Of a DNA stretch of 64,000 bases, positions 20,434 to 64,000 are shown one piece after another. The notes beneath the pieces are model-generated. The model was given only the letters and a program-made list of their open reading frames with translations, was not told where the DNA came from and did not search any database. This stretch comes from Norana najaformis (lineage: Eukaryota > Annelida > Clitellata > Crassiclitellata > Hormogastridae), in the NCBI GenBank assembly GCA_964023275.1, contig OZ029928.1, forward strand, positions 20,459,535-20,523,534. Direction: 5' to 3'. Made by a program: the position numbers and the translations under genes. Positions within the stretch are counted from its first letter, which is position 1; each line of letters opens with the position of its first letter.

Positions 20434-23084
20434 ATGAGTTATCACAACCCAAATCCTGTGTTCATGCCGACAACACGGCCGCCATCGCAAGGATACCCAC
20501 CATACGGTGGGCCTGGAATGGCTTCGGGCAAACCTCCTGCGGCCGCTGCTCAAGGGAATGCATATAAACAAATGTATGTAGTTCAGCCTGGACCGTATAT
20601 GAACCAGCAGTGCTATCCTTCCGGTGCTGATGGCAGCTATCCGGGTGGTGGACGTGTGGGAGCAGAAGCCAGTGCAGCTCAGGTCGTCGTTGGATTGCCA
20701 ATGTACCAAGGTCAATATATGCAGTCGGTAAGAAGTTTAATTTCGACGGTCTTGCGCCTTCTGAGCTGTGTGATATGATGCATATTGTCACTGTCCATGT
20801 CATATTCTTTCTTAGTCAGGGTTCTCTTGAACGGTTCATAGCGCAGCTTTGTTTTAAGAAGCATCAGAAAGCCAAGTAGAAAGGCATGTCTAATATTTGG
20901 CACAGTTTCTTATTTTATTTGCCTCTTGGATTTTTTGTCTGCTTTGTTTCACTGGGTGTGTATTATCGCTACAGCTGCACAGTCAAGGCTTTAGTTTTGA
21001 AGGTCACATTAATCAGACAATCCATGATTCGTGCAGTCAGTTCACAGTTACACATGTCAAAATTTTAATTGGAACATTGGGACTTATATTTTGACCAGAA
21101 TCAAAAATGTATTATCTCATTACCGACCGCACGGTACTAATCGGTAGTAACGTCAGCCGACCGCACGGTACTAATCGGTAGTAGATGGGACTAGTCATAT
21201 CGTAACCTCTTGTTTATTTGTAATCCTTATAATGTTAGAATTCTACGTCATTTAGGCAAATAGGTATAATTTTAATCCATATTACATCAGCGGAATCCCT
21301 GGAAAACACCTCAAAAATATAAAAACCAACCAATCAAAATGGGCATTTAAATCGGCCAGCGTGTAGTTAAAAATGGATATTTAAATGTCCCAAAATGGCG
21401 AAGCGTTGTTTACCGGAGGAAGAAATTCGCCGATCGATCGACGAATGGTCGTGTATTAACGAAAGTTGTGATTCTACTGATGAATAAAACGTGTCAGATG
21501 GATCACACGAGACTGTTGGCAATACGAAGTGAACAAGTGGCACACTGATATGGAGTTTGATGACAATGGCATCCTCTATATGCCTGCGGCGATTGTGGGT
21601 CAGTTTTCAGTGAACCAGAAAATGTTGTGTTGAGAAATATAATTATAGATTGGAAAAGAAGGGAAGATAAAATGATAAAGAATGGTGTTTACCTTATGTA
21701 TATATGTCAAACACTGACACAGATATCACAAGTTCAGTTATTTTTGCTTTTAGGCTTTTCCTGTAATTTTCTTCAGTTTTTACCCAACGGTCTAAATACT
21801 AAAAAGATTGTATATCTTTCAGTTTTGAAAATATTTTTAAAATTTCTGTTTGGTTCTATCTGGCAACAATTTCTGCACATTTCTTGTTCCTAGCTACCAT
21901 ATGTTGTCACTTACAATTCTTATGTAGACTGTCTTGAAGGTAAACATATAACAAATTTTTGGAGTATAGTTGGGGGCAACTTTGGATATCCCAAAACAAA
22001 TTTTCCCCAAAAAACTTGACAGATGAATGGGTAGAGGAGATAAAATGCTAAAGAATGGTACTTACCTTATGCCTACATGTCAAAAACCAACAGAGATATC
22101 ATAAGTTCAATTTGTTTTACTTTTATCCTTTTTCCTGTAATTTTCTTCAGTTTTTATGACAACGGTCTAAATACTAAAAAAAATTGTATCTCTTTCAGTT
22201 ATGAAAATATTGTTAAAATTTCTGTTTGGTTCTATCTGGCAACAATTTCTGCACATTTTTTGTGCTCAATTTATATATGTTGTCATTCAAAAATTTTTGT
22301 AGACTGTCTTGAAGATAAAAATATAGCAAATTTTTTGGGAGATATAGTTTGGGGCAACTTGGGGTACCCCAAAATTTTTTATTTCAAAAAACTTGACAGA
22401 TGGTTGGGAAGAGGAGAGAAAATGCTGAAGAATGGTGGTTACCTTATGTCTACATGTAAAAAACTGACAGAGATAAAACAAGTTCAATTTTTTTATTTTT
22501 TGGCCGTTTTTGCCAAAAATGTGCGGTCGTGAGGGGGTAGGTGAAAAAATTTCTGCGGTCGTTAAAGGGTTAATGCTTGATTCACTGATTGCTACGGAAA
22601 GTTTATAGATCAGCCATAATAGCTTGAGACGTCACAGTACGTCAGTTGCTCTTTTGACCAACATCAACTGCAGATTGACAGACATATCACAAATCATGTA
22701 ACCGTTAGATTGTTATGTTTTAGTGTCTTTGTGAGGCTCTTAGAACGCACTGCTTGAGTGCTTGGAGACATACATACAGGTCAGGTCAGAAGCTCTGGTC
22801 TATATAAAAGTTGTATGGTTTTAATGTATTTTAGAGTTCTGGGATTGTTGGGAATGCACCGCAGATGATAAGACAACTTCCAGTGGTAAGTTATTTCTGT
22901 CTTTGTTTCCACTCCACAGACCCTCTGTCTGTCTGTCTGTCTCCTCTCTCTCTCTGTCCCTCTATCTCTCTCTCTCTCTGTCTCTCTCTCTGTCTCTCTC
23001 TCTCTCTCTGTCTCTGTCTTTCTGTCTCTCTCTCTGTCTTTCTCTCGATCTCTCTCTGTCTCTCTTTGTCTCTCTCTGTCTCTG

Positions 23085-23115
<31 letters not shown>

Positions 23116-23969
23116 ATCAGTTGTACATTGTGGACTGCTTCGTATCGTTACTGTCTGGTGAGGAATCAGTCAATTCAAAACCAACACAGTCATCATATCA
23201 TTAGTTGTGCAGAAGAAGGTGTTTTTGATGGATAGAACAAGTTCTCTGACATTGTTCCTTTGCTTTGCTATTCTGATTCCAGTCTCGGCTTAAGACTTTG
23301 TGCTCATGTTCTGCCTGGGTGACCAGGTTGGAGGCTTGTGCTTACTACAGCAGTGCTCTGGAAGTTGTAAGATTTGGTTAAATTAGATGTCCTTGTTCTG
23401 GCTTTCTGAGCAGTATTCTGATTGTGACAATTGCTGGGGCGAGGTAGCCAACTGGCTAAGGCACTCTGCTTGTAATGCGGAGGTTTCTGGTTCGAGCCTT
23501 CATCTCGGAGATGGCTACCATGTAGGGACCTTGAGCAAGTCCTTCACTGACAGTTGTTCTGCACGTTGATTGATGCTTCGTCAGTAGATAGTGGTGCTTA
23601 ATAAATGCAGAAATAATAATAATTTATGTGATTATGTTAGCATAGCAATGACGCTGAACTGATGCAGAGTAGCTGTGGCTCTCGTCTGATCTGATTCCTG
23701 CAGAGATGCAAATGTACCGAACTGGTTTGTCCGAATTTGTGTACGTCAGTGATGAGCCTACAATGATGGTCTGTTGCCTGTTAAGTCTTCATTCAGATGC
23801 ACTGCTTGTGTTATGTGGATCCACTGAGAAATACTTGACTCTTGTTAGGAATCTATACGTATTATGCCTCTGTCTGTGTGTGTTTCAGTATCCAGGTCCA
23901 CACATCCCCCTCGGTGCATCTGCCCAGTCACACACTGCTCCCTACAACATTGCAATTGGCCAGCCACAA

Positions 23970-24000
<31 letters not shown>

Positions 24001-27000
24001 CGTATTACAAAGGAGGTACTTTGTATGTTCTTCAACAGTTAAATGAATCTTATTAATAGCACAGTTGTGAGAAATCTGTGATGTTGTCTTAAGTTGTCTA
24101 TGCTATCCAGTGATATCTTACCAAATTTGTCATAACTGTCTCATTGCAATATTACCTGAGCCACCAGCTGCAAATATCGAATGAAATGCCTGAAGGTCCT
24201 TTTGATTCTCCAAATTATATCTTACGTATTTGCTGGACTGAGATGTATTTGTCAGTTTATTTAGCGCCTGATGATGACTCTTAGTTATTATTACTAAACA
24301 TCTGATGCAAAACCTTGGAATGTGAAGATCTGTCGAATCCAAACTCCAAGTTTCCCTGTTGATATTCTACACTGGAAGGAAATCAGTGGAAGTCATCTTC
24401 TCACAGCTACAACACTATGACATCCTTCGAAAATATGATAAACACTTGCCTGCACCAATCCTAAGGGAATTTTCTAACAACTGGCCAGCTGTGTGGCATA
24501 GCATTTCCAGAGTGCTTTTCCAGTCTACCTGCTTGTTTGAAATGCATACAGAACCATTAGTTGGTTGCACAGTGTCAGTGCGATTGAACAGCAGTATTAT
24601 AAATAATCTTAGCACTGCTATGTTTTTACGCTGGGTTTCCGCTTTGCACGCCACTACGATCACTAAACAGTATATTGTAAATGAGCGCAAATTTCACTTA
24701 GCACAGTTTCTTATGGAATGTTTTTGCTAAAGTTTGTAAGTAAGTAGGAATTTAGAGGATACCAGTGCCACCAATGGACCAGATCTTGAAGCGGACGGTT
24801 ACCAAGGGACAAGCAAGTGCACACATTGGACAAGAGATGTTTTCCGCTCTGGACTTCCCGATGATGTGGCCCTTCTCAGTGAAATTCTGGAGACATTGGT
24901 CCTGTCGTTGGGAATACCAGACGGGCAAGCCCACCAGTTTGGGCTTTAGATCAACTGGGCCAAAACCAAGATTCAAACAACAGTTGCAAGAAACATGGCG
25001 GAACTTGTAGAAGGATTCACCTATCTTGGGTCGGACATGGAATCTGATGGCAGCAGTGGACCTGAGATTCAACGCTGGATAACAATAGCCCATGACTGTT
25101 TGAACAGCCTTGATGGAGGAATCCGGAAAACTAATGTTCGATTTGACTCCAAATCCCCTTGTTTACAGCCTACATACTTCCTGTTCTTGTTTACGGGGCT
25201 GAGACCTAGATGTTCACGGTGGCCCTTGAAGCAGGAACTGGGTGCCTTCCAGCAACGGTGCCTACAACGAATCTTGCGAATTCCATTCACTGTGCATATG
25301 ACTAGTGCAGAAATATACAGACGCACAAACAGTTGCCAATCTCGGAGGTGGTCGAAACACGACGACTCTGTATCTTTGGATTAGGGTTAGGTAACCGCGA
25401 CAGGACCGTGCTGGGGCTGTCTGAACCTTGATTCTTGGCCTTCCTAAGACCTGGAAGAGGCCGGTCGGACGACCCAGACGCACATGGACCCGGACGGTCA
25501 AGGCGGATCTTCGGCTGCTGAACTTTAAGCTGTATGCAACCTGGAGGTGAGTCCAGGACCTTGACGGTTGGCAGAGAATTGCGGAAACGACAACGCTCCA
25601 GAGAGGGGCACGCTAGTGACGACGACGATGATGATGAATGGTGTATCTTATCCTTTGTTATCTTAATTTGTGTACGTTATTTGATGGTTTATAAAGTTTT
25701 GTCTGTTGAGTTAATTCTTCTGGCTTTCTTCTGATTGTGATGAACTATGTACATGCAGGGTACATGCCAGCTCCTCCTCCTCCTTCACAACAGCAGCAGC
25801 AGCAGCAGTCATCAGCGGTGTCTGTGCCAAAGAGGAAGAAAAACATATTAAAAATAATTGATCCAAACACTGGACAAGAAATTAATCCAGTTGCTGGTCA
25901 GGAAAACAAGGCTGCAATGAATGATGTGGAACCAGCTGCTGCTGCAGCGGTGGCACTGGCACCAGCACCGACTGATGTAAGTTATCACCTGACAGATCGT
26001 CATCATCAGTAGTTGTCTGATTCACACAGTTACAAGATTCTCATAGGCTTCTCTTTGTGCTGCAGAAGTTTGCGTAGCCTTGTTTTGTGCCAGCATTCTA
26101 CTGTTGCCCTTGAGTGCGGGTGGGTGCATCCTATTGTCAGCCATTGAGCACACCATGCCTCATGACTGCTGACTCATGACCAATGACTCATGACCTCCGA
26201 CTCGTGACCTATGACTCGTGACTAATAACTCTTGGCTAATGACTCATGACTAATGATCTATGACTTGTAACCAATGACTGACTGAGTGGTCCAGTGAGAA
26301 GAAATCTGAATATAGGAAGCAAACAGGTCAATGCATAGGGGTGGGGGTCTGTTGAACCTGCTAGAGACTGGATCGGCCGATTTCCAGTTTCTTTCTGTTA
26401 TGGTAGAAAGCAGAATATAGTTGGTGCATATGAAATTAATTCTGTGTAATTATCTACTGACCTCATTCCTGCTTTTCTTGAAATGTTCCAGGATTCTCAG
26501 TGGGGGGCTCAGTTCGCTGCTCAAGTTGCGGCAACATTGGATCCGCTGGCTCCAAGAGACAAGTCAACCAAGTCGCGAGCTGCAGCTGACGCTGCTGCTA
26601 CAAGACTTCCACCGTCACCAGATGCCGCCGAAGCAGTGTCGTCCGAAAATGCGCCTGTGGTGACTGAGCCAGCAGCCGATGTAGATGTGTTGCCAGTCGG
26701 CCAAGATCAGCCAGAGTCATCTGTAGCTGAAGCAGCGGCAGCAGCAGTGACCCCAGTGGAAGCAGCTTCTCTTCCGACCTCTGGCAGTGTTCCATCAGAT
26801 GAAAACCAAACATCTACTTGTTTGCCTACAGCCGTCGTCCTCTGTGATGCCGCCGATCAACCCAAGGGCGCTACACAGGCAGACCCACTCCCTACAGCTG
26901 CCTCAGATCAGCCTCTGTCAGAGTCATGCAGTGCTGATGATGATCTGGTGAAAACGAAAGCCGCTACAGCCTCCTCATTGTCAAAGGTGACTACTACTGT

Positions 27001-30000
27001 GAAGAACATTCCACAGCATCCGGTAGCATCTCAGCAGCAGCAGCAGCAACCAAGCAAAGCATCTGGCTCTGCAACTGCTCCAGAAACAACACCAGATAAC
27101 GGTAATTTACTATCAGCTTATGATTACAGGTGATGTGTTTTAGACCCTGCATAAGCACATAAGGTGGTATAAGGGCATAAGGTGGTATAAGGGCATAAGG
27201 GAAGTGAAGGGAGGGAGGACAAAGCATAGGATTTGTTGGCAGTTGATTTGTGCAGGCGGCTTTTGTTAAAAGAAAGTTCTGTTTTGGATGATCCCCATCT
27301 CTGCAGCTCATGCATCTGCTGTGGACGATCTTCTGTTGCGCTGCTGCTCTGCGGGTCTTCGTTGATGGTGGCTGCTGAGCAGATGCTGACGACTGACGAG
27401 TGCATAGATGGTCATCGGTGTTCGTGTGCTACGCTCTGAAGAGGCGTCTTTTTGTTCTGCTGTACGAGACGCCACCTGTCCTTGGAGTGGGAGAAGTGCG
27501 AGTGGCAGGGGGGGGGGCCTCAGTGGCCAGAGTAAAACAGGGCGTCTTTACAGACTGTGCGTGAAAGATGTCGTGGTGGTGGTGGTGGTGGTGGTCTTTG
27601 GTGGTAGACGACTCCAGATAGGAGGAGGGCTGAGGGGGCAGCAAATGAAGGAACTTGAAATCAAGTTCCGTTAACGATAACAATAATAATAACATCATGT
27701 CTGTCGCTGAAGAAATATTTGCTGAAAGTCAAGCAATACCGATAATTAAATAATTCTAAAAGCCAAGAGGCTAACCAAAATAGCTAGAACTAACACAGGA
27801 ATATCGTCCACGGAGAGAGGGAGGTGAGAGGGTTAAACCAAATGCGGATAAGGGGAATAGGGCTTATGCCCAATGTGGAAATCTGCATCTAGATTTGATA
27901 CATTGTTATTTCAGTGTAGACTGTGTCTCAGAAACCAACTTCAGTCAGACAGCAGACTGTGTGTTGAAGTCCTCTTGCTAGTGGCATACGAGTTGAAAAA
28001 CAAATTTTGAAAGGATATTCTCGGTATAAGGAGACTTTTTATCTAAGATCGTGACCTGGAAGTGGACCTGATCTTGCATGTATCAATGAATTTCTTTCCG
28101 ATTGAGCACTTGTGATTAAACTGGTTCCCATCGCATAGCTTTTCTGGGCGCTGAAGAAACACTGATTTTACGATTATGATTATCTTTAAACTGTAATTGT
28201 GGCTTGAAAACTGTTGAAATGAAAACACTCTAAAATAAATTTTGAGTTAGAACTCTAGAAAGCTTGAATCACTGCAGCTGAAAATAACCGAAACTGAGAA
28301 TTAATAACTAAAAGCCAAAGACGGCTTTATTTTGTTATTCAGAGTCGTGAGAACTTAAACTCAAGAACCTATGAGAACCAGTTATAACTGAAGCTCATGA
28401 TGTAAAAGCATAATAAGTAGAACTCTAAACTGAGTGGGTAACTGAAACTTCGCAAAACTCTGACGGATCCCGTAATCGTCGGGAACGTGCGCTAAGAACT
28501 TCTGTGAGCAGACCGAAGAAATGAATGAATGCATAAGTCAGTGAATGAATGTACGGCCTACTTCTGGCCCCACTTGGTAATCAACTGCTCCTTTACTGAC
28601 ATTCGTCATTTGCACTTTGTGGGTCATTTGTTTCTACTGGTTTCCATTTGATTCGCTGTTCGCCACCAGTGCCTATCGTCTTCAGTGTCTATCGTCTTCA
28701 GTGCCTATCGTCTTCAGTGTCTATCGTCTTCAGTGGCATCTGTATTCGTCCGTCGGGTTGGGTCTTGTTTCTATAAATAGACCGAAGTTCAGACGACCTG
28801 CGAACGGCCGCCTGCGTTGCTGTGCCTGAGCGCCTCGTGGGCTGCTAGGTGTGGGTAGCCAGGGCGCCTCTCGGACCGGGGCCTGCCTGCCTGCCTGGCC
28901 GAGGCTGGCGCTAGACTGCGTGGGCTCGGTTGCCTTGTACTATGGTGGTATTTGCTAGAAGACAAGCCGACGAGTTTTAAACGGCGCTGTGCTTGGAATC
29001 GTCTGTGTGTTGTTTGGCTGGAGGGTTAAATGGACTTCAACATTTCGTATTTAGGTCGATTCGGATGGACCTCGTGCCAAGGAAAGCGCTTCCTTCGCTT
29101 GTGTGTGCGGCGTAGCTATGTAGTGGTCGACAGTTCCGGGCCGGCACATGTCAGACGGACTGAAGCGGTTGTTGGTGCCCCCTGGTTGCTTTCGTTGCGT
29201 CAGTCTGCAGGTCGGTCGGTCGGTCGGCCGGCCTTGAGAAGTTGATCGATGTAGTCTGTGGTTGCTTCCTTGAAATAAATTCTTCAAGAGGAGGAGGAGG
29301 AGCAGGAGCAGGAGCAGCAAGAAGTCGAACACCTCGTAGCTCTTTGAGAAAAGCTTGTGGCCTAAGTTTCGATTACTGTTCACTGGCTCCATCTATCGGA
29401 CGGACAGACGGCCGGCCATGGGTAAGCAAGGTCATTGATCAGGTTGCCTGTCGATCTCTTCTCAGATCACCCTCCGACCGACCGTCAGTGTGTTTTCCTG
29501 AACTTCTGTCTAATCATCATAGATAATTACCTCTGCATGTGTTGCTCTTATCAGTGTGTGTCTTGGTATGTTCTGTGATGTATGCCACGGCATCATACAC
29601 AATTTCACTGCAAGTGACCATCAGTTGAAGCCTTGGGCATTGTTATAATGGCGCTATAGAAGTCACTGGATTAGATTGGAGTCAATAAATTCAGAAATTG
29701 CATAAGTTTCTGTGATGCATACAAGACTGTTAGAGAAAAAGTTCTGATGAAATGTGCTTCACCTGACGGACTCCTGCGTAAATGTTGGAAATAAATTGTG
29801 ACTTTTTGTGACAAATTGTCTTTTCAATTTGTGTTTGGCACACATTCAGATGTTTTGCAAGTCTGTCTACTGTCTGACTGTGTGTATGTCAATGTTGTTT
29901 GGAGCTGCTAAGTTGAGTTTTTCTTTAGCATTCTTCTGTGCATAACTGAAGCTTGCATGATTTGTGAATTTATGGACACTGACAAAAGTACTTTGAAAAC

Positions 30001-33000
30001 ATTTGTGTTACTCTGTTTCGTACTGATTACTCACGAATTACTGGAGCAGTTTTTCTCACAATCTTGGGTGACCGTGTTGTTTGCAAGTTAGCGGCCACAA
30101 GGGGGACTGTTTCCACAGAACTGCCTTCGTGTGGCTTAGTTTTCCCTCTGAAAGTAGTTGCTCAAAAGAGTTGCATCTGTGAGAGTGTCAGCAAAGTAAT
30201 TTTCTCCCAGTTGCATTGGTCATTTCCGGCCAGTGTTGTTTGTGTTTCTCAGATGTTACTTGATGTTTAGGTTTGTGTTGTTTAATTTAGGCAACAAGAA
30301 GAAGAATCGCAAGAAAAACAAAGATCTGAATACAAAAGGGAAAGTTCTTCAGGGCAGCGACATGGATGCATTCATTGATGAGGTTAGATGGGAGGCATTT
30401 AGCGGTTCTAGTTTTTATCAGTCATCATCTGTTGTTGCTAAGCCAGGGAAAAATCTGTGTTGCTCTTTGGGTTTCAATAGAGATTTTGTATTTGTGTCAA
30501 AAGTAAGGAGACTAAAAACAAAAGTTTACAGCAAACTGGTCGTTGTCTTGAATTGTAGGCTTCAAAACCTGAAGGTCAGAAGGCAAAGTTGATTGCTGTC
30601 AAGTCAGTTGTCAGCAAAAGCGCTGACACAGCTGGGCCTGAAGTTGTTCTGGAGCCAGAGATGTCAACACAGAATGTCGCTGAGGATACACAAGACAAAG
30701 CTACACCTGAGAACAGAATGCCATCGTCACCTGCAGGGTCAGATGGTGTTGCAGATAGTGCCGCTGTCGCTGACAGCACTGTTGTTTCTGACAACATTGT
30801 TGTTTCTGACAACGCTGTTGTTTCTGACAATGCTGTTGTTTCTGACAATGCTGTCATTTCTGACAACGCTGTTGTTTCTGACAGCTGTGCTGCTGGCACT
30901 AACAGTGCTGTTGTTGCTAATAGTGCTGTGATAGAGAAGACTTCATCACCAGAAGCAGAGAAGACGTCTGTCGAAAGTACAGTCTCTGGTGATGGAAGTG
31001 CATCTGGCAAAGTATCGTCTGAAGTCAGTGATGCTACTGTGGAAGATACTTGCCCTGCTTCGGCAGCTGATGGTGATGGTTTGTCCTCAGACAAGGAGGT
31101 GACCAGCGAGCAACGGCCATTGGACGGTGATGCTTCAGAGAAGACAGCTGCAGCAGCAGGGTTTGGCTGTGATGATGTGAAGACATTCCAGGCTGATCTG
31201 GCCAATGACGAAAGCAAGGAAGATGGAAATGCTGCTGAAGAAGCAGTTGCCAAAAATCGAGAACAAGCGGATGATGCGGAGAGTGACAACAGCGGCAGCG
31301 GGACGGAGATGGAGGCTGCTGCTGCTGTGAAACCAGCCCAAACACAACTGAAGTATACCTATTCCGAAGGTCAGTCATTACCTTTTGTGAATGACGCAGC
31401 TGCTTGTCTGAAATCTTTGCTTTCCATCTCATTATCTTCCGAGCTAGTAGGTTTATGCCAGTGGTACTGAGAGTCTGTTAATGAACATGGGTGTCCGTCA
31501 TTTCAGTTATTCATAACAAGGCCTTAACTGCAATCATCATTGAGTCTCATTGTGCATTGTCTGAGGGGTGATCGATTGAATGTGTTTTGTCTGTGATGAA
31601 ATTTCAGACCAGTGGTCTCCGTTAAATCCAGAAGGGAAAAAGCAGTATGACCGCAACTTCATGCTTCAGCTGCAGTTTGCAAATCCATCAATAATTAAGC
31701 CAACTGGTTTGCCTCAACTGCCAGACATCATACTGAACGAGGTGAGAGTTTGGAAATGTCATCATCTTGGTCCAGTGGGTTCAGGGGTAATGTAGCCTTT
31801 CATCTGCTCTTTCAATACAGTTGGAAAGAACTTGGAGCTGTCGAGTTTATTTAGACGTTTAGCAATGGGGTGAGGGATTTCTGCATTAGGTACTGACGGA
31901 CTTTTAAGAGTTTTTTCTTGTATTTCACCCACACAGTTTGGTTTTCCACTGTTGATCAATTTCTTCCATTATAACTAGCATGACATTCATTGTTAAGCTG
32001 GACGCTTTTGTGATTTATGACGAATTCCAAGAGTGAATGTTTTAAATTGATTTTGCAGCCTAGAGTAAAAGAAGATTTTGCTAGACAGTTGAGCATAGAT
32101 CCAATGTCACCTGTGGATTTCACTCCTGGTTTCATCAAGCAGTCTTTGGGGGGAGGAGGAGGGGGCGGTGGTGGAAACCGGGGACCGCCCCGACGCGGCG
32201 GAGGCGGTGGTGGCATGAAGCGGGTAAATGACCAGCAGCAGCAGCAGCAGCAACAGAGGAAAGTTATTACATTGGAACACAACATCACTCTACATACGAC
32301 GCAGAATGCTTGGAAGCCTGTCGCTACGAAAGCCAAGGAAACAGAAGTAACTACTGAGGAGGTGAGTTGACCTCTTTCTGTCTGACAAGCGGAAACGGTC
32401 TATTCACCGGCCGTCTGATTGAACTGCATTTGAACCTCGGCCAGGTTATGTCCATTGCAAGCACGAAAAACATTGAAACTGGATCATCATCTGTTATGAT
32501 TTAACAAGAATTGCTTTTCTGTCTGCAGTCTACCAGCTTACAGGTTTTTCTGTAAAGAAGGTCTTTACGTAGAAGAGCTTCAAGATATGGTTGCAGGCCC
32601 TTGTTGATTGCAATCTTGAATAGAAAGGGCAGCAGTTGAAGCATTATCTTGTCTAGTGTGAATTTGTTCTGTAGGATGTTTACAAGAAAATCCGCGGCAT
32701 TCTGAATAAGTTGACGCCTCAGAAGTTCACAACTTTGATCCAGAAGGTTCAGGATCTGCCAATTAGCACTGAAGAAAGACTCGCAGGATGCATCAACATC
32801 ATTTTCGAAAAGGTATTCTTTGTCGATTTGGTGCATGTAGAATTAGATGTTCAAATACTGGATGTACATTTTAAAGTGCTGAGAGTTACTCTTGAAGTTT
32901 AGCAGTACAACTGACTCATGAACGTAGCAACTACTGGCCGGTTGATCTGCCTGTGATCAAGGTGGCTGCTCCTTTTTCATTTCATTTGATTGAAACTTTG

Positions 33001-36000
33001 ACAAACATTTGGTACACATGCTTGTTAAAATGTGTTCTGATTTAGGTCAAACTTTATCAGGTTGATTAAGTGTGAAAAGACTTCGTCTCTTACTGCTCGA
33101 TGGTTGTGACTTTCACAAAACATTTTAATTTCTAGCCCTAACACTCAAATCAGATCATAATCAAGTCAGGTGACAGCTTCGTTGCTGACAGCGTAATGAA
33201 TGCTGTACACAGCAGAATGTAATTCTTCTTCTTCTGTTGCAGGCAATCAGTGAGCCAAACTTTTCTGTTGCCTACGCCAACATGGCCAAGTGTCTGATCA
33301 ATGTAAGTTCTTTCACGTTGCTCTCGATTATTTGACTATGAAGTTTGTCTCCACTACATGTTTATTTGATTCTCAGCAGTCGTTCACTGTGTTTACAAAC
33401 AAAGTCAGATGCGCAGGCAAGGCTACTAAAGGTCAGCGTAATATGACCAATGGTTTTCTGGCCTTTACAGGCAGGTAGACGTTGGAGAAACTGTACATAT
33501 AAATTGCCTAAGTTACACTTGGTAGTGCATTGCAAAAGTAACCTGTCAGGTTGAACTTGATGTGCTTTGAAATAATTCCTTAAACTGACGTTAGAATTGG
33601 TTGTTATTTGTGTTGTCAGATAACTGTTCCTCTTGAAGCTGATCCTGATCAGTCGGTTGGTTTTCGGAAGCTGCTCCTTAACAAATGTCAGCAGGAGTTT
33701 GAGAAAGACAAGGCAGAGCAGCTGGACATCGATCATTTACAGAGCCTCATTGATGAAGCAGTTTCGGTGAGTTCCAGCTGTGATGCTTTCTTCCTTTGTC
33801 AGTTTATTTCTGTCTGTCTTGTGTCTTTTCCAGTGTCTGTCTATAAGTGCTGCCTTCCGACATCTTCTGTGCATATTTGCCTCTGTTATCAGTGTTTCTG
33901 TTTTTTGCTTTCTGTCCATCTCTCGTTGTCTGGTAAGTTCACTCGGAGTGTCTGCTCGTATCCGTTCATGAAGAAATAATCTTGTGGCCAATCAGTGCTG
34001 TGTAGCACTTAAACCTAGGAAGACCAAGTACAACACTGGCCACAGAAATCACACCAGTGCAAGTTTTGCCATCCTGTTGTATGTGAGCTCAAATGCTGTG
34101 TAGCTTCGTCTTCTTTTAACTGACTATGACTTGCGCCATTTTGTAGGAGGAAAAGCGAAAGCAACTGACAGTTCAACGTGATGAAATGATGATGAAGGCA
34201 AAGCGTCGTTCCCTTGGCAACATCAGGTAAGAGAATTTGAATGGGGAAGGAGGAGAGGAAGATTGGGTTGGTCTTTGTTAGACTTTTTGTTATATTGTTT
34301 GTCTTTCTGTGCAAGACTGTCAGCTATCTTCCAACAAGTGATTATTGATTGTTTTAATTGTTTTTTTTAACTTGCCGTTGATGCAAAGTGTTGCGTGTTG
34401 CTAGGCCCTAGCAGAAGCCGCTCTGAACTAACGTGAAGGAACATTACTAAATTTTGGTTGAGGTGAATAAGATAACCTGTAATAATCGGTTGGCTGTGAC
34501 ATTGACAGGTTCATAGGAGAGCTTTTCAAACTCAAAATGCTGACTGAGAAAATTATGCATGAATGTCTGAGCAAACTGCTGAGGAGCAGCAACGATGAAG
34601 ACAGCTTGGAATGCCTCTGCCAGCTGCTGACGACGATTGGGCAGGACATCGACAAGAAGCAACAGTCGCAGGTAACGGCAGCAGCAGCAGCAGCCTCTTA
34701 AGCTGCTGCGTTGATGTATTGGTTGGATCATGTGTTGTTAGATGAGTTGTAAGAAGGAATGTCACTGGGGTCAGTTGGTTATGTTTGGCTGTATCTGATT
34801 GTGGAATGCTGTTATAATTTCAAGTTGTGCTTATTTCCAAGGTTGCTGCTGACATCATTTCTAACCTAACGGGATTCTAAGTAGTTAATTTTGTTCAGTG
34901 CTAAAAAGGGTTTTGAGGCTGAAAACTTCTATGTTGAAAATTTCTACGTCTGATATCACGAGGTTGTTTCTACTTTACGAACGTTTCGTTGGTGACTGTA
35001 ACTGTTGCGATCTTTCTTCTGTAGTTGATATTGAGTTGTTCGAAAAGAAATGGAAATAATGAATGATTGGTTGGCTTGATTTTTGCCAGGTCCTTGTGAA
35101 CAAATACTTCACAGAATTACAGGGATTGATGGACCAGAAGAAGACTTCTGCAAGAATCCGGTTTATGATTCTCGATGTCATGGATCTACGAAAGGTGGGA
35201 ACCGTTCAAAGCCTAAATGCCATAATTATGCAGTTCCAGCTGTTTGTGGGTATTTGATGCCCGAAGCTATTCACGACAACAGGAATGTTCCATGGAGTGC
35301 AGTGGTTGTTGGTTTGAATGCATTCTTGGGCCACCCACAGAGTTCACAGTTGGAATTAAAGGCTTCCCACAGATTTGGATTATGGGTTGTTTTTGCAGTC
35401 TTTACAGTTGACATCATCTTAATTTAGTTTGTGTGTTTAATGTGTTGTTGAGCTGCAAAGTAGCGTCGTCTTGTGTTTTTGGTTTGTGTAGAATAAATGG
35501 ATTCCGCGAAGGCAGAACAACAACCCAAAGACGATTGAACAGATTCACAAGGAGGCTGAACAGGAGGTGCAGGAGAAGCAGGTGGCCCTCCAGAAGTTCA
35601 ATCAAGAACAGCGAGGCCGAAGAGGACCGCCCTGTGAGTCTGGCATTTGACCCCTGCTCTTCCTCCTCTGTAGTGCTGAAGAGGACCACGTGTGAATTAG
35701 TTTGACAAATTATGACATCGAGTTATACATGCGTGTGTTTGTTGTGGAATTGGAATTGTATCAGAATGTTTAATGCAGTGTGAATTGGAACGAGTTAACG
35801 GTCAGTCAGTGAGTGACCGTTGTGTGTGATGTGGAAGGAGAAGAATTGTATCTGGGTCTGTCTAGTGACTATGTATCTTGTTGCAGTCGTCTTCTACAGT
35901 GAACAGCGTCTTATGTTTCAGCGCGTGCTGGGCCAGTTTCCTCTGCTGGGTCACATGGAGGTGACGACGGCTGGACGGCCGTCGGCAGAGCGCCAAAGAG

Positions 36001-36738
36001 CATTGTTGATCCGGCCCGAATGAAGCTGACGAAGCAGCCGATGGATGAAAATGTTCAGCTGGGACCCGGTGGAAAGGGCATGAGTGCCTGGCACCGGGGG
36101 AGCAGTGGCGGTTTAAAGACTTTGTCACAGGAGGGCGATAGACCAATGCCAACGCCAAATAGGTAATTGCTTTGGTTTCATGAAGTTCTAAGAAAGGAAG
36201 CTCTGTTCTTACCGACGAAATCCAAATGGTTCATTTGAAATGAAATGTTCATTCGTAACATATATCAGGTGCCAATGTTTGTGTCTGAGAAGAATTGGCG
36301 CAGAATGAAGACCTACGTTTCTAGGAGTCAGCTTTTAGAGGTTTCTGATGTTGGCTCTTGCACAGATTTTCTGCTCTCGGTGGATTTGGATCGGAATCGA
36401 TGGATGCCAGAAGTCGATCTGGAGGCCGAGGCGCTTACACTGGCCGTCTGTCCGGACCACAGGGCAGGGCACCAGTCTCCAGGCAGTCTCAGGAAAGAGC
36501 ATCCAATGAAATGTCATACAGGTTTGTACCATTCATGTCATCCTGTATGGAAGTAATCAGTTTGTAGTCAGGAGCTTCTGCAGTTTAATGTAACGCAGCA
36601 TGCTACAATGCCTGAAATGCAAGAAATGGAGCAGTCAGTTGTGTGAATTAACTTTCATATCAGTGGTCATCTGATGCAATTCTTTGCATCTTTGGTGTGG
36701 CTTTCAGAGGGATAGAGACAGAGAATGACAGCAGAGGG

Positions 36739-36769
<31 letters not shown>

Positions 36770-39700
36770 GAGAAAGAGACAGAGAGATGGATAGCGATGA
36801 CGAGAGCGAGATAGGGAGTAAAACGTTTAGTGCTGTGTAGTTTTGACACTTCTTAGGCATTGTATTTTCTTCTGCAGGACGTCTGGGGCCGGCCGTGCTG
36901 CGCTTTCTCCAATGGGATCCCGGAGTGCAAGTCAGGAAACAAGAAGCACAAAAGACAAGGTGTCGTCAAGAGAGCAGCAGCTCATGGCACCAAATCCAGA
37001 TGATGAAAAGGAAGTTTCAGAGGCTGAGGTCGAAAAGAAGACCAAGTCACTGATGGAGGAATACTTGCATGGCCATGATATCAAGGTAAGCTGTTCTTCT
37101 TTCGTGAGTCCTTTGCACAGTGATGATGTTCAAGTTGGTCTAGCATGTAGTCTAAGGGAATCGAGCTGGTATAATTGCAAATGGTCAGATATTAGAGAGA
37201 AAGCTGGACAGATTGTTTTGTGTGCAGAATGGCTGCATTCATCATCTTTGTGTCTTGTCTCTGTAGGAGGCGGCATTATGTGTCGAAGAGTTGGGTTCAA
37301 AGTCCCTTCGGCATTTTGTCTACCATTCCCTTCTGCAGAATCTGGAGAGAACGACTCAAGCACGAAACTTCACGGGGAAGCTTCATCTCCACCTAGTCAA
37401 AACAAAGCGGATGAAAATTGACCATTATGTCGAAGGTCTTCGTTGCATCTTGGAGTTTGCAGATGAAATGGTGATTGACATTCCGCGCATTTGGGTATAT
37501 CTTGGCGAGCTCATCGGCCCCATGATTGAAGATGGTACTGTGCCGCTGACATTCCTCCGAGCGGCCTGTCACCCTCTGTTGGCCTGCGACAAAGCAGGCG
37601 TTGTTGTCAGTCAGGTGCTGCATGAAGCGTCACGTGTGCTGGTTAGTACGAATTTTCAGTTGACTCTCTCGTCAGGCATCATCAGTTAATCGCAGAAGTT
37701 TCTAAGAATTAGACGTATACATATATACATACATGCATACATACATACGTACATTTGTGTGTGTGTACTTGCGATGAAGCACTTCTTAGAAGTATTTGTT
37801 TTAGGTGTGTCTTGCTGCATGCATACATTCAGAAGAACATCCAGCACTGATAGAGTGGCAAGGCAGACTGGATATTTCTAATGAAAGCTGTTTCATTAGT
37901 ACGTCATCTTTATTCGTGTAGTTTTTTAGCATTATCCTCATGGGTGACTTAGTTCTTGGTGATCCCCTCATGGGTGACTTAGTTCTTGGTGAGCCTCATG
38001 GGTGACTTAGTTCTTGATGTGAACGATGGCAGTTTCTTTTGTAGGGTCATCGTGGAGCAGCTGACCTTTGGCAAAAGTCAGGTCTCCGTTGGACGGACTT
38101 TATGAAACCAGCTTCAGTAGAATCTTTCATCAAGGATCAGGTATTCATCAGTTTTCACGTTTTGCTGCTTATTTGGGTTTTAGTCATTTTGAACCCTTTC
38201 AACATAGACTAACAGTGGGAGTGGGTAGGGTCTAGAGACTTCATAGAGACATCGACGTGGATTTGCTAATTAATCCTGGGAATTTTACTGGCCATTGAAG
38301 TGACTGTTAGGTGTATATTGGACACTGTGCAAGTCCTGGTTTTACCATCTGTGACCAGTTACCATCCTATGCTGAAGGTTGTTGTTCCATGCTGCCAAGA
38401 TCCTTGTTCATTCGGTCATCCTGAAGCTCTTTCACTGTCTCCATCCTTGGAGGCCTGCGAAAATTGTAAGTAGGTTCGTGTCAGTCTTCCTCAACTGTCA
38501 GCCTGCATAAATTCTTGCATTTATTGGTTTTAATTTGAAAAAGATTGTGTCTGCAGTGTCTTATGCTCAAGACAGCTTTGGATTCTTTATCCTCGTGCCT
38601 TTTGAGGACGTCAGTCAATGTGGCCTTGAATTGGGAGACCTGGTCGACAGTCACTGAGTTTTGCTGCTCATGGGGATCAGCAGAAAGAGTGCAAGAAGCG
38701 CTGTGACAATTTCCGGTTCAACTGTTATGAACACATTTTGTTTTGTGTTGCTACAAAGGCAGAAACCAACAGAGGAATGTAAGAAAAGTGTAAAAACTAA
38801 CGAAGAAGAGCATCGCTGCTCAGCAGCCCGTGGAGCTTTAAGTTGCTGTACTCCTGCAGTTGTTACTTAAAATTTAGGTTGGTCTGAAAATTTAATTTTG
38901 CAGAAACTTCAGTTTACGGAAGAGCCAGTGTCAGCAGCTTCTGGTTCCAGTCTTTCTATGGAACAGATTCAGGAACAGCTGACTGAACTTCTCGTTGACT
39001 CCAAAACAGACAAGAAGAAACTGTGTGACTGGGTTGGGGTAAGTCATTATGTTTTAACCCTTGGAATGCCATGCATTTTTATGCACTGATTTCCCCACTT
39101 TTTAGGCTTTGGTCTAAATTTTATGTTTTCCTTAGAAACTGTGCAGTCTTCTCAGCCATGGGGATACGGCTTCAGTGTAAACATGAAAATTAGTTTAAAG
39201 TGAATTTGAAAATCATCATTGTTTTTGGGCAGCCCTCAAATGATGAACCAGCCCCTTCAATGCAGTGAAATTTAGCAGGGATCTCATCTTCCCATGGTTT
39301 CTAGACATGACATCAGAACAGATGCCCTCTAGACTTGAAATGTGTTGATTCATAAATGCCCCAGACCTGACATCGGTCTGTTTCAAAATGCCCCTAGACC
39401 TGGCGTCCTTATGTTCCCAAATACCCTCAAGTTTGAACAACATTGGTCTGTTTGCAAATGCTGCTGGTACCATAACTGGCCTTGAAAGAAGAAACCAGAT
39501 AACTTCTACTGATGCCCATGAGAATTAGCACAGAACTATTTGTCAGATGCCGCTAGATGGCACTTGTTAATATTGATGGGCCATTGATCAGAGCCTGCTA
39601 TGTTCTGTTTTTCCATGAATACTCAGATATGTTCGTTCTTTAGGAGAGGTTTGATGCAGAGACATCTCAGAGCAGTTCATTTATTCGTGCCTTTACAACT

Positions 39701-42125
39701 TCAATCTGCTTTGGTTGTCTACAGAATTGGAAGCCAGGTCGTAAGTAACTTGAATTTCTGTTGTCTTTGCCTGAAAAGGAAATGATGTCTGATGTCAGTT
39801 GTTTAACTGTCCTTGATTTTACCGATAGTCTGTGTTTTGGTCTTTGAATGGAAACTTGTGTTTGTTCTGTTCTTGTAAGTGTTGTTGTGAAAAGGTCTTT
39901 GGCCACAAAGAGCTGCTGAATCTTAGGCAGATCTGAAGAAGGAATTATGCAGCAGATAATGGACTGGGTGCACGTTTGCTGTTTTGAAGGGTTTATTAAA
40001 ATGTGCTTGCTTTTATTTTGTGTTTAGATAATAGAACCTTGTCTGCCTCAACTAACTCATTGATTTCTCTACGCTTACTGACTCTAGTTAGAAACGACCT
40101 TTGATTGATGCTTTGCAAGTAACCCTAACCCTTTGTGATGGCAATGCAGAAGGGTGTATGAGTTAGTCTAGTGGTTAGCATGCTGGCCTGTCAACCTGGA
40201 GGCAGGGAATTCAAAACCCCAACAGGGATGAAAGATGTTTTGAGATATCTGCTTCACTTGTGTCCCTAGCAAAGGTGGCTAAAGAATCTGTACCCTGATT
40301 GTACACCCTCACTAATTGCATATTGCGGTTAGCTGGGGGGACTGGTCTTTTCTCAACTTCTTCTCTGCCTCCTCTGGAAGTTACCAGATTTAGATTTAGG
40401 TTCTTTGTAGAGCTTTCTGGTACAGCCTGGCCGTAAAGACTGTCTGATGTGCAGAGGTAAATTCTTTGGGTTAGGGTTATGATGACTGAGTTTGGGGATT
40501 TTCCTGTGTTGACTGGATGTTGTCTGTTTACTGACAGAGCGACCAGACAGTTCTAAAATCGATGCAGACAAGTTGAAGGAATACGCAAATGTTCTCGCCC
40601 GATACGTCAGACATGAAGTGCAACTTCAACTGCAGGCACTTTATGCTGTGCAGTCTTTCGTCCATAAGTTGGAACATCCGCCAGGTCAGTACTCTGTTTA
40701 GAAACAGAGGTTAGGAAGCTCTTTCGTCCATAAGTTGGAACATCTGCCGGGTCAGTACTCTGTTTAGAAACAGAGGTTAGGAAGCTCTTTCGTCCATAAG
40801 TTGGAATATCCGCCAGGTCAGTACTCTGTTTAGAAACAGAGGTTAGGAAGCTCTTTCGTCCATAAGTTGGAACATCCGCCAGGTCAGTACTCTGTTTAGA
40901 AACAGAGGTTAGGAAGCTCTTTCGTCCATATGTTGGAACATCCGCCAGGTCAGTACTCTGTTTAGAAACAGAGGTTAGGAAGCTCTTTCGTCCATATGTT
41001 GGAACATCCGCCAGGTCAGTACTCTGTTTAGAAACAGAGGTTAGGAAGCTCTTTCGTCCATAAGTTGGAACATCCGCCAGGTCAGTACTCTGTTTAGAAA
41101 CAGAGGTTAGGAAGCTCTTTCGTCCATAAGTTGGAACATCTGCCAGGTCAGTACTCTGTTTAGAAACAGAGGTTAGGAAGCTCTTTCGTCCATATGTTGG
41201 AACATCCGCCAGGTCAGTACTCTGTTTAGAAACAGAGGTTAGGAAGAGGTTATTGCATTAAACCACACCAGCATCGACAGACTGATTCTGAAACTATCAT
41301 CTTGGAAATGAGGCTGTCTTAACTAGGCTTCTGCCAAATGGCAGTTTTACTGTTGGACTGAATACAATTAATTGAGCAAACTATTTGAGCGACTACGAAC
41401 ACAAATAGTAGGACAAAAGTAGGACATGCTAAGAATATCTTCAATTTTTAAACGAGTAGAAACTAGAGACGAGTATTTTTAGAATATTTAGTGTAACTCA
41501 CTTGCCTGCTGTCACTTAACTTTCCAGTGCTTTTAGGCTAATTTTGGGTTATGTCTTTAACTGTAACAGTAGAGAAGAAAAAATTGCCTGGATGGCTTAT
41601 AGTTATGTAAATTTGCTTTCAGAAAGGCTAGAATTCTAAATTTTCACGTGAAAGGCAACTTTTCCTTTCAGGAAAATGGCTGCTGCATTACTGAACATTA
41701 CACTGGTCACACTTGTTAGTAGGTTTGCCAGAAAGGGGGCTTGGGCTCCTGTCCTCGGGTTTGGGCATACTATGTGCCCATTAGTAGATGCATGGAATGT
41801 GGGGATTAAACTTCCTCTACACAACAGAAAAGCCTGGTGGGCCTAGAATGCTAGAATGCAGCTTCTCTATTCTGTTGTTGGAGTAAGATAGTTTAGCTAG
41901 TCTATTGCTTTGTTTGTGTTTTCAGGAATGCTTCTGGCAATTTGGACAGTTCTTTATGATGAAGACGTCATAACTGAAGCTGGCTTCTACAAATGGAGAA
42001 ACAGTTCTGAGCCAAGCGAGGCAGCTGGGAAGGGAGTGGCCCTGACCTCTGTTACTCAGTTCTTCCACTTTATTGATGACCCAGAGAAAGAGGAGTCGGC
42101 AAAAGAAGACGACCTAGACAGCTAA
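20434..42125 (+). CDS. EIF4G: Eukaryotic translation initiation factor 4 gamma (eIF4G1/3-type)
   Basis: Cytoplasmic scaffold of eIF4F that joins cap-bound eIF4E, eIF4A, eIF3 and PABP. Twenty-five coding exons: 20434-20727, 22835-22885, 23889-24015, 25759-25976, 26492-27101, 30291-30382, 30559-31369, 31608-31741, 32059-32361, 32675-32812, 33243-33302, 33620-33766, 34147-34226, 34509-34671, 35090-35194, 35492-35633, 35922-36162, 36366-36521, 36878-37085, 37267-37641, 38045-38140, 38904-39038, 39644-39740, 40538-40684, 41926-42125. Every junction is GT-AG in phase, giving 1709 aa (human eIF4G1 is about 1600). Order: Q/P/A-rich N-terminus; [19 protein letters not shown] motif (about residues 190-210); acidic low-complexity region; eIF4E-binding motif 748-754; Gly/Arg-rich linker; MIF4G about 881-1111; linker with NRFSAL; MA3 about 1338-1517; W2/eIF5C about 1535-1709. 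Exons 3, 4, 5 and 9 encode polyglutamine. The least certain boundary is the acceptor of exon 17, where 35922 and an in-frame AG 15 nt later both fit. Confidence 0.97.
21115..22577 (+). mobile_element. Decayed piggyBac-like DNA transposon in eIF4G intron 1
   Basis: The right edge reads TGCGGTCGTTAAAGGGTTAA, a piggyBac-type end (AAAGGG plus TTAA target). The left edge, with CATTACCGACCGCACGGTAC, resembles its complement but is damaged. Near 21391 a short frame starts [18 protein letters not shown] and then meets stops, reminiscent of a PGBD transposase N-terminus. The interior has about 2.5 copies of a roughly 375-bp tandem unit (landmarks AATGGTG/AATGGTA before CTTACCTTATG near 21681, 22054 and 22431). 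Left of it a CCGACCGCACGGTACTAATC unit is present twice (21124-21183). It is not active. Confidence 0.65.
22922..23120. repeat. (TCTC)n/(TCTG)n microsatellite in eIF4G intron 2
   Basis: Pyrimidine-only TCTC/TCTG array of about 200 bp, starting only about 35 bp after the exon 2 donor. Serine/leucine-rich frames across it are artefacts. Confidence 0.95.
23434..23625 (+). mobile_element. tRNA-derived SINE in eIF4G intron 2
   Basis: The RNA polymerase III A box TAGCCAACTGG at 23445-23455 and B box GGTTCGAGCC at 23489-23498 are spaced as in tRNA genes. A body with GGGACCTTGAGCAAGTCCTT follows, then a 3' part (TTGATGCTTCGTCAGTAGAT) and an AATAAT tail. Partial copies lie at 5390-5475, 7752-7795 (reverse), 10669-10725 (reverse) and 43918-44030. 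Confidence 0.85.
24765..25640 (+). mobile_element. Decayed non-LTR retrotransposon (second LINE family) in eIF4G intron 3
   Basis: In shifting frames the plus strand gives reverse-transcriptase and C-terminal signatures: a damaged FADD region (SALDF, then [15 protein letters not shown], 24840-24900), [59 protein letters not shown] and finally a TTLQRGA segment. The 3' end is a GAC/GAT tail (25618-25640). Several frameshifts and stops make it a pseudogene. The motif set differs from the L2/CR1-like element at 15222-17825. Confidence 0.85.
26165..26285. repeat. Degenerate short tandem repeat carrying AP-1-like sites, eIF4G intron 4
   Basis: An imperfect unit of roughly 7-15 bp built on AATGACTCATGACC. 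Three exact TGACTCA motifs lie at 26170-26176, 26184-26190 and 26240-26246, with near-matches (TGACTCG) between. TGACTCA is the AP-1/TRE consensus. Function is unknown. Confidence 0.6.
27155..27205. repeat. Short tandem repeat in eIF4G intron 5
   Basis: Tandem units containing CATAAGGTGGTATAAGGG, about 2.5 copies. Confidence 0.75.
28135..28195 (+). mobile_element. LINE tail relic in eIF4G intron 5
   Basis: AGCTTTTCTGGGCGCTGAAG followed by AAACACTGATTTTACGATTA matches the end of the ATTACG-tailed LINE family (compare 14840-14915). A further degraded copy may lie at 29645-29690. Confidence 0.45.
28665..28740. repeat. 16-bp tandem repeat, four to five copies
   Basis: Units of CTATCGTCTTCAGTGT/C lie directly upstream of the TATA-like motif in eIF4G intron 5. 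They could act as a repeated regulatory element or be neutral. Confidence 0.8.
28772..28780 (+). promoter_or_regulatory. TATA-box-like motif, candidate internal eIF4G promoter
   Basis: TATAAATAG is followed by a GC- and CpG-richer stretch (about 28800-29240) inside the AT-richer intron 5. A transcript starting about 30 bp downstream would run to a strong donor (GGTAAGC, 29421-29427). Confidence 0.4.
29418..29421 (+). other. Candidate alternative start codon at a splice donor (ATG-G then GTAAGC)
   Basis: GCCGGCCATGG gives a strong start context (G at -3, G at +4). The fourth base is the last base before GTAAGC. Exon 5 ends in phase 1 and exon 6 begins GC AAC AAG, so splicing from here to 30291 would give [12 protein letters not shown], then the rest of eIF4G: about 1277 residues, lacking the first 433. 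Upstream ATGs, for example at 29030, would lie in the leader. This is inferred from sequence only. Confidence 0.4.
30776..30888 (+). repeat. 18-bp coding repeat in eIF4G exon 7
   Basis: About six tandem units encode the hexapeptide VVSDNA (variants VISDNA, IVVSDN, VVSDSC) in the acidic, disordered region upstream of the eIF4E-binding site. Synonymous and amino-acid variation is present between units. Confidence 0.9.
31608..31741 (+). other. eIF4G exon 8, eIF4E-binding motif
   Basis: Encodes [12 protein letters not shown] and then the canonical-position motif Tyr748-Asp-Arg-Asn-Phe-Met-Leu754. The consensus is YxxxxL followed by a hydrophobic residue. Here the usual leucine is methionine, a conservative change. 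The flanking [10 protein letters not shown] is nearly as in vertebrate eIF4G1, which anchors the gene identification. Confidence 0.93.
32675..35194 (+). other. eIF4G MIF4G domain (exons 10-15)
   Basis: HEAT-repeat domain that binds eIF4A and RNA. Visible signatures are [104 protein letters not shown] and [18 protein letters not shown]. Introns interrupt it five times, all in phase. Confidence 0.96.
36735..36790. repeat. (GA)n microsatellite in eIF4G intron 18
   Basis: GAGAGA array of about 55 bp, about 90 bp upstream of exon 19. Confidence 0.93.
36878..38140 (+). other. eIF4G MA3 domain (exons 19-21)
   Basis: Second HEAT-type domain, a further eIF4A contact in metazoans. Visible are [77 protein letters not shown] and GLRWTDFM. 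Confidence 0.95.
37945..38025. repeat. About 29-bp tandem repeat, three copies, eIF4G intron 20
   Basis: Units of CTCATGGGTGACTTAGTTCT plus TGGTGA-type spacers lie just upstream of exon 21. Confidence 0.9.
40140..40335 (+). mobile_element. Second tRNA-derived SINE, eIF4G intron 23
   Basis: The A box TAGTCTAGTGG (40164-40174) and neighbouring GTTAGCATGC resemble a tRNA 5' half. A degenerate B box, GGAATTCAAAACC, lies at 40206-40218. The body differs from the SINE at 23434-23625, so this is a separate family. Confidence 0.65.
40654..41247 (+). repeat. 66-bp minisatellite seeded by the exon 24/intron 24 boundary
   Basis: Nine units with a period of exactly 66 bp start at 40654, 40720, 40786, 40852, 40918, 40984, 41050, 41116 and 41182. 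The first unit comprises the last 31 bases of exon 24 (TCTTTCGTCCATAAGTTGG onward) and the first 35 of the intron. Each later unit copies the exon end and the donor CCAG/GTCAGT (CCGG/GTCAGT in the second unit). Units differ at only a few positions (CATAAG/CATATG, CATCCG/CATCTG), implying recent expansion. Confidence 0.97.
41248..41925 (+). other. Remainder of eIF4G intron 24
   Basis: No repeat or gene is recognised. The intron ends with a strong acceptor, TTGTGTTTTCAG, before exon 25. Confidence 0.6.
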
Positions 42126-46060: not shown

Positions 46061-46064
46061 GACC

Positions 46065-46292
46065 TTAACCCTCTATAAAGCACTAAATTGATGACCCTAA
46101 CCTTAACCCTAACCCTCTATAAAGCACTAAATTGATGGCCTTGACCTTAACCCTAACCCTCTATAAAGCACTGAATTGATGACCTTAACCCTAACCCTCT
46201 ATAAAGCACTAAATTGATGACCTTGACCTTAACCCTAACCCTCTATAAAGCACTGAACTGATGGCCTTAACCCTAACCCTCTATAAAGCACA
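46065..46292. repeat. 38/44-bp tandem repeat containing short telomere-like hexamers
   Basis: CTCTATAAAGCAC recurs at 46071, 46115, 46159, 46197, 46241 and 46279 (spacings 44, 44, 38, 44, 38). Between them lie CCTTAACCCTAACC stretches. The 6-bp length difference equals one extra hexamer. Confidence 0.9.
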
Positions 46293-46729
46293 GAATTGCA
46301 CAGAGTAGTTTACTGCTGTCGTGATGGCTTCCATCTTGTCAAAAGATACAGAAACCATCTAACCAACACACTGTGTTTCAAGAAAGAGGCTTGCAGTATA
46401 CCACCAGCCAAGAGAATCCACCAAGTACTGAAATTCTCCTTGAATTATAGCATTTCGTGGAACAGTTTTGTGCTGAGACAGTTAACCATTACACGATGTA
46501 GGGTGCCTTGTTACTGCAACAGAAGTACTTAGGAAATGGAAGGGGAGCCCCAACTGAATTCCTTGGTGATGAGGGAAATAGGATTGATGCCAGCAATTGG
46601 TAAACACGAGTAACACACTCAGTTTAAATGAAAGTCAGTCCTACTATAAATATCAAGACTCCTCCTCACAGAATCAGCAATGCTGATTATAATCAGTTGA
46701 TAGTAGACTCTTAACACAAGGTTCTGATG

Positions 46730-63336: not shown

Positions 63337-63340
63337 CGTA

Positions 63341-63662
63341 AGGGTTAGGGTTAGGGTTAGGGTTAGGGTTAGGGTTAGGGTTAGGGTTAGGGTTAGGGTT
63401 AGGGTTAGGGTTAGGGTTAGGGTTAGGGTTAGGGTTAGGGTTAGGGTTAGGGTTAGGGTTAGGGTTAGGGTTAGGGTTAGGGTTAGGGTTAGGGTTAGGG
63501 TTAGGGTTAGGGTTAGGGTTAGGGTTAGGGTTAGGGTTAGGGTTAGGGTTAGGGTTAGGGTTAGGGTTAGGGTTAGGGTTAGGGTTAGGGTTAGGGTTAG
63601 GGTTAGGGTTAGGGTTAGGGTTAGGGTTAGGGTTAGGGTTAGGGTTAGGGTTAGGGTTAGGG

Positions 63663-63703
<41 letters not shown>

Positions 63704-64000
63704 GGTTAGGGTTAGGGTTAGGGTTAGGGTTAGGGTTAGGGTTAGGGTTAGGGTTAGGGTTAGGGTTAGGGTTAGGGTTAGGGTTAGGGTTAGGGTTAGG
63801 GTTAGGGTTAGGGTTAGGGTTAGGGTTAGGGTTAGGGTTAGGGTTAGGGTTAGGGTTAGGGTTAGGGTTAGGGTTAGGGTTAGGGTTAGGGTTAGGGTTA
63901 GGGTTAGGGTTAGGGTTAGGGTTAGGGTTAGGGTTAGGGTTAGGGTTAGGGTTAGGGTTAGGGTTAGGGTTAGGGTTAGGGTTAGGGTTAGGGTTAGGGT
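63341..64000 (+). repeat. Telomeric (TTAGGG)n array, about 110 copies, running off the window
   Basis: Uniform TTAGGG units in the orientation expected for a right-hand chromosome end. A single TTTAGGG variant occurs near 63680. The vertebrate-type hexamer, the ancestral metazoan telomere, argues against most insects and nematodes. Confidence 0.98.

Follow-up and report, generated by a model that had tools for sequence, protein, structure and literature searches.

How does a gene keep its protein intact when the donor site at the start of one of its introns stands there nine times over? This question is raised by a 64,000-nucleotide stretch of contig OZ029928.1 (hereafter the window; one haplotype of an assembled contig), which carries an eIF4G1-like gene. 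At the donor of its last coding intron lies a tandem array of nine near-identical units, each of them part exon and part intron. We consider it quite likely that the array is a mirage-type exon-intron boundary minisatellite, near-neutral for its host gene and with the first donor dominating over its copies. Nine near-identical, evenly spaced donors offer a natural experiment on why the spliceosome takes the first among equals, in a gene whose activity is expected in most cells. The features concerned are given below with the basis of each; TRF stands for Tandem Repeats Finder.

20434..42125, forward strand: coding span of the eIF4G1-like gene in our rough model, stop codon included, with 27 coding exons, exon 2 doubtful (model, PDB, Pfam)
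40538..40684, forward strand: penultimate coding exon, ending ...EHPP/G (model; human eIF4G1 alignment)
40654..41247, forward strand: mirage-type array of nine head-to-tail 66-bp units (TRF, unit tables)
40685..40690, forward strand: donor 1, GTCAGT, which preserves the reading frame and the W2 domain (sequence, homology)
40692..40709, forward strand: perfect inverted repeat CTCTGTTT/AAACAGAG, closely 3' of the donor, in each unit (sequence)
40699..40701, forward strand: in-frame TAG, reached via a later donor or intron retention (sequence)
40751..41218, forward strand: donors 2-9, GTCAGT at 40751, 40817, 40883, 40949, 41015, 41081, 41147 and 41213 (sequence)
41926..42122, forward strand: last coding exon, acceptor GTGTTTTCAG/GAATG, with the remainder of the W2 domain (model, Pfam)

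Anatomy of the array

TRF reported 40654-41246 with a period of 66 bp, 9.0 copies, 97% matches, 0% indels and a score of 1137, and together with our unit table this bears out the original prediction of nine 66-bp units at 40654-41247. Judged by the TRF score rather than by shuffling, an array of such length and identity is not a product of chance. Each unit joins 31 bp from the 3' end of the coding exon to 35 bp from the 5' end of the next intron, and a GT stands at 40685+66k in all nine, within CAG/GTCAGT in eight of them and within CGG/GTCAGT in unit 2, so the earlier description of 31 exon bases plus a GTCAGT donor holds. The array had also been called intronic, whereas it is exonic as well as intronic, with real coding sequence in unit 1. 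The exon had been numbered 24; our rough model places it as the 26th of 27 coding exons and leaves the number unconfirmed, while "penultimate coding exon" is safe. Head-to-tail units across an exon-intron boundary and a duplicated splice signal (GT in 9/9 units, AG/GT in 8/9) are the anatomical marks of a mirage, and both are present. The kind of structure is already known from lancelets; the gene that carries it here, eIF4G, is another.

The near identity of the units that had been pointed out earlier was likewise found, with at most three differences per pair in the 65-bp core. Variation among units is confined to unit positions 14, 22, 26 and 30 and the final base of unit 9. The intron-derived part is the same in 9/9 units, barring that last base, which gives only a hint that this part, with its donor and perfect inverted repeat, may be kept or homogenised. 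The low divergence would fit a recent expansion and ongoing homogenisation alike. In order, the unit types run a-b-c-a-d-d-a-e-d, units 1, 4 and 7 being identical in the 65-bp core, as are units 5, 6 and 9. Because of these identities, telling donor 1 junctions apart takes reads that extend more than 31 nucleotides (nt) upstream, together with unit counting. The order of types fits slippage or unequal exchange and opposes simple assembly stutter. It also bears on the idea that the copy number is an assembly artefact, falsely expanded or collapsed. One amphioxus globin mirage does seem to have been misassembled in a draft genome, but the irregular order of the variants speaks against such an error here, as does the fact that the contig runs into a long telomere-type tract, suggesting long-read assembly; we thus hold an artefact to be very unlikely.

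The edges of the array give some indication of how it may have arisen. Neighbouring units meet at GGAAGC/TCTTT, while the left flank reads GTGCAG/TCTTT and the right flank GGAAG/AGGTT, so that the unit junction holds an extra C in comparison with both; the first duplication was probably joined near an AG, with one base added or changed. Agreement with the intron part is found at 8/35 positions in the 35 bp 5' of the array, and with the unit start at 12/31 in the 31 bp 3' of it, and the array ends are therefore fairly sharp. We surmise that a 66-bp segment lying across the donor of eIF4G's last coding intron was duplicated in tandem, and that the duplication was then amplified and homogenised to nine copies via slippage or unequal exchange.

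Donor choice and the W2 domain

Exons of the host gene were modelled with our own splice-aware dynamic programming (score threshold >0, introns <40 nt disallowed), where the threshold biases the site-score ranges of the model upward and most exon ends are backed solely by the model and the human eIF4G1 match. Exon 2 of the model is CT-rich, of low complexity and doubtful. The last 855 model residues match human eIF4G1 (PDB chain 6zmw_g) with E 3.3e-147 in three aligned stretches. Pfam searches found W2 in the last two exons once joined, and the eIF4E-binding region, MIF4G and MA3 in pieces made of a single open reading frame (ORF), all domains standing in order; MIF4G stretches at 32675 and 34486 lie above the curated cut-off and the one at 35063 lies below it. 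The W2 match (PF02020, E 8.9e-16) covers residues 30-106 of the 114-residue spliced C-terminus, so the original prediction that use of a later donor truncates W2 had assigned the domain correctly. When 40684 is joined to 41926, the C-terminus aligns with human eIF4G1 without a gap at the junction, LEHPPGMLLAIW being aligned to LEQPPNLLRMFF. This ungapped match makes it very probable that donor 1 is both ancestral and in use, with the array starting within the penultimate coding exon.

The choice of any other donor has a uniform outcome in the sequence. Joined to 41926, donors 2-9 run in 8/8 cases into the TAG at 40699-40701, which lies in frame with the exon as had been proposed, and yield a product ending ...HPPGQYSV. 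Four foreign residues (QYSV) are added and 57/77 residues of the W2 match are removed. The loss amounts to the last 65 residues rather than the 66 given before, because the Gly codon is rebuilt at the later-donor junction. The C-terminal domain of eIF4G binds Mnk kinase. From this stop to the last junction there are 49 nt with donor 2, and 115, 181, 247, 313, 379, 445 and 511 nt with donors 3-9. Nonsense-mediated decay usually follows a rule of about 50 nt, from which some invertebrates deviate, and the isoforms of donors 3-9 are expected to be its targets, with donor 2 as a borderline case.

We infer that donor 1 does the work: it closes the real exon, precedes the others in transcription, and alone among the nine spares W2 when joined directly to 41926. 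Copies 2-9 would then be intronic and be removed along with the intron. Occasional use of donors 2-9 would lead into the truncated frame, and from donor 3 onward such messenger RNA (mRNA) would fall to nonsense-mediated decay.

Near-equal strength of the donors is seen when they are scored with consensus frequencies from general knowledge, untrained on the host species, which were used for all splice-site scores in this work. Eight of the nine score 4.8 bits and donor 2 scores 2.9, and the 26 model donors, donor 1 included, span 0.3-7.5. RNA structure was considered as a cause of donor 1 choice and rejected, as donor 1 did not stand out in accessibility with any of the three window sizes used. 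The inverted repeat is predicted to form a 7-bp hairpin with a UAGA loop, and when a longer sequence is folded, several of its copies pair across units instead. Folding of the array is unremarkable, with a z of -1.39 for two units (18/200 shuffles as good) and of -1.12 for the region (3/20). Since local sequence and accessibility do not separate the donors, the selector of donor 1 would have to be exon context, transcription order or distance.

Several points weigh against a near-neutral array with a dominant first donor. Donor 1 is not favoured by its own site, 8/9 donors scoring equally, and its predicted accessibility of 0.052 lies within the 0.012-0.061 spanned by the other eight (W=240). 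The four variable core sites are all located in the part of the unit that comes from the exon (31 bp; p 0.046, post hoc), which a purely neutral array would not predict. Duplicated 5' splice sites may be picked by proximity to the acceptor, and donor 9 would then be favoured. In the lancelet, the gene prediction for PGBD5 is described as building an exon from mirage repeats, without support from complementary DNA (PMC3902484). Besides, for 66% of the intron modifications in human paralogues that carry variable tandem repeats, repeat-retaining transcripts are reported too (PMC2812944).

The array could also act as a leaky regulator, in which competition among nine donors sends transcripts, according to copy number, to decay or to an eIF4G devoid of W2 and so tunes eIF4G output or Mnk binding. 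This would be compatible with the mirage interpretation, and the near-equal strength and accessibility of the donors argue for it, as do the distances from stop to junction, which mostly suit decay while donor 2 with its 49 nt may escape, and the human cases, which often have repeat-retaining transcripts (PMC2812944). Lancelet mirages, in contrast, were reported without aberrant mRNAs (PMC3087553, PMC3902484), and we regard regulation of this sort as unlikely.

AG/GT boundaries and the setting of the array

The boundary sequence is an AG/GT in 8/9 units at a spacing of 66, unit 2 lacking the AG. Any boundary GT and a later boundary AG thus formally delimit an intron of 66n nt, and removal of the segment from the GT at 40685 to a later-unit AG from the donor 3, 5 or 9 mRNA restored the exact reference sequence in 3/3 tests. 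The array may accordingly be conceived as self-erasing and dual-specific, of a recursive type, with AG/GT serving as acceptor or donor and units being removed stepwise by 66 nt or in re-splicing. CCAG/GTCAGT-type boundaries in 8/9 units and the restored mRNA would suit this view, and human UBC, in which nine ubiquitin units with AGGT between them yield a ladder of spliced forms through dual-specific splice sites, is described as splicing between its own units (PMC10809524); in human tandem repeats such introns are reported to be 8.4-fold in excess (PMC10809524). The in-array acceptors, however, lie between -0.83 and 0.49 bits, whereas the true acceptor reaches 6.41. The unit 3 site (-0.59) is equalled or exceeded by about 21% of the 1533 AGs within the gene span, and 66 nt is close to the shortest introns of the model, 56 (doubtful) and 74 nt. 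We therefore give dual-specific splicing, compatible as it is with a mirage, a low probability. That whole 66-nt units are cut out to correct the choice of a late donor, which would make a minisatellite across a splice site invisible in mRNA as a self-erasing intron expansion, seems to us a shade less probable again. If true, it would be a way for mirages to persist in essential genes.

In-frame microexons were considered as well: the in-unit acceptor GGTTAG/ and the following donor would delimit an exon of 36 nt that adds 12 residues, or a variant of it. Such an exon preserves the frame and is open in the 3 listed of 8 unit positions, yet a score of -4.46 bits is all that its acceptor reaches. 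The better in-unit acceptor, AACAG/ with 1.16 bits, does not keep the frame in the 3 listed of 8 positions, and the closest copy would require a 30-nt intron. With this weak acceptor and the frame of the better one, the microexon was rejected and is hardly credible. On the opposite strand, a 216-residue ORF (40607-41257, minus) was rejected as a gene, the unit of 66 = 3 x 22 keeping a stop-free frame open; it has four low-scoring Pfam hits, RNA_pol_A_CTD alone above its cut-off and no stretch passing by itself.

The 21.7 kb of the gene hold 52 modelled boundaries, and a 66-bp segment placed at random would straddle one in about 16% of cases; hence a minisatellite in the eIF4G gene should catch a splice site fairly often, and no special attraction is required. 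When the 52 boundary sequences were searched against the window for other mirages in the gene, nine had extra matches, and only the array donor had 60-bp copies among the matches listed, the remaining eight having 15-37 bp matches, many of them microsatellite-like. Likewise, one of six hand-listed arrays of the gene, namely the nine-unit array, holds a modelled boundary; the hand list did not take in a CT-rich array at 22923-23115 that overlaps the doubtful exon 2, a period-15 array of CAG type at 23967, or entries with shorter periods. An 18-bp tandem repeat of 6.3 copies at 30770-30883 lies in a modelled eIF4G exon and is a coding minisatellite of in-frame SDNAVV-type units.

Tandem arrays may be frequent in the window generally, TRF giving 69 rows, some of them for one and the same array. 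A 660-bp (AGGGTT)n tract of about 110 copies at 63341-64000 closes the window, preceded by degenerate CCCTAA-type repeats at 62369-63337. The AGGGTT tract, at a distance of about 21 kb from the eIF4G gene, probably marks the end of the chromosome, and the gene on this account looks subtelomeric. Minisatellites are common in subtelomeric regions. About 17 kb ahead of the telomere-type tract, an interstitial array at 46062-46298 carries ACCCTAACCC cores at a period of 44 or 82 bp. Further repeats of the window are a 33-bp repeat at 1962-2299 (10.2 copies, 96% matches, several open frames on both strands) and a perfect (CTGC)65 tract at 278-537. On the minus strand, the 714-residue ORF at 15704-17848 has a reverse transcriptase match (PF00078, E 2.9e-35) and a weak, sub-cut-off endonuclease match, and looks like a retrotransposon without long terminal repeats. 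The intron 5' of the array contains at 40150-40340 a sequence resembling a short interspersed element, presumably derived from a transfer RNA (tRNA) judging by its resemblance (TAGTCTAGTGGTTAGC...). ARAGORN found no tRNA genes in the window, this segment included, and Rfam gave no match at its gathering threshold in the window. The exact 37-base unit pattern is absent from a viral contig collection, and the 65-residue protein of the last exon had 413 pattern matches and 0 confirmed relatives in a genome contig collection, as expected for viral and prokaryote collections.

Comparison with known systems

A literature search gave no such array in eIF4G among the paper titles found, and a precedent in print is still possible. 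In the earthworm metallothionein gene, intronic minisatellites were reported, none of them boundary-spanning among those described (PMC12783039). Like the dual-specific arrays of human UBC and VCX3A, the eIF4G array has AG/GT at a fixed multiple-of-three spacing, where splicing between units preserves the frame (PMC10809524). UBC units, however, are fully coding and are kept in varying number, whereas those of eIF4G are exon/intron hybrids with an in-frame stop; because of this stop their retention should harm, and an eIF4G mRNA without an extra copy is expected.

Tandem duplication across an exon-intron boundary, or with AGGT or a proto-splice site, also figures in the AGGT model and in Drosophila near intron pairs (PMC4974935, PMC2891723, PMC3443670). 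Unlike these, the eIF4G array predicts a lengthened intron rather than a new intron position. It thereby bears on how tandem duplications over splice sites lengthen or create introns while the protein stays unharmed. Variable tandem repeats in human segmental-duplication genes are similar in that boundary minisatellites alter gene structure; they were detected via comparison of paralogues (PMC2812944), whereas the eIF4G array is known from a single locus.

The closest counterparts are the amphioxus mirages, tandem repeats over exon-intron boundaries described in Adh3, the globins BflGb6 and BflGb9, TnC and PGBD5, with units of 10-72 bp in Adh3 (PMC3087553, PMC3902484). They are unstable in length, one globin mirage having six units in one haplotype and three in another, and yet regular splicing is reportedly undisturbed (PMC3087553, PMC3902484). 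The present array differs from them in its gene, eIF4G, and comprises nine units with no more than three pairwise differences. If the host is not a lancelet, mirages would be more widely distributed than known so far. The array also provides a test object for donor choice as well as for the self-erasing potential of AG/GT arrays.

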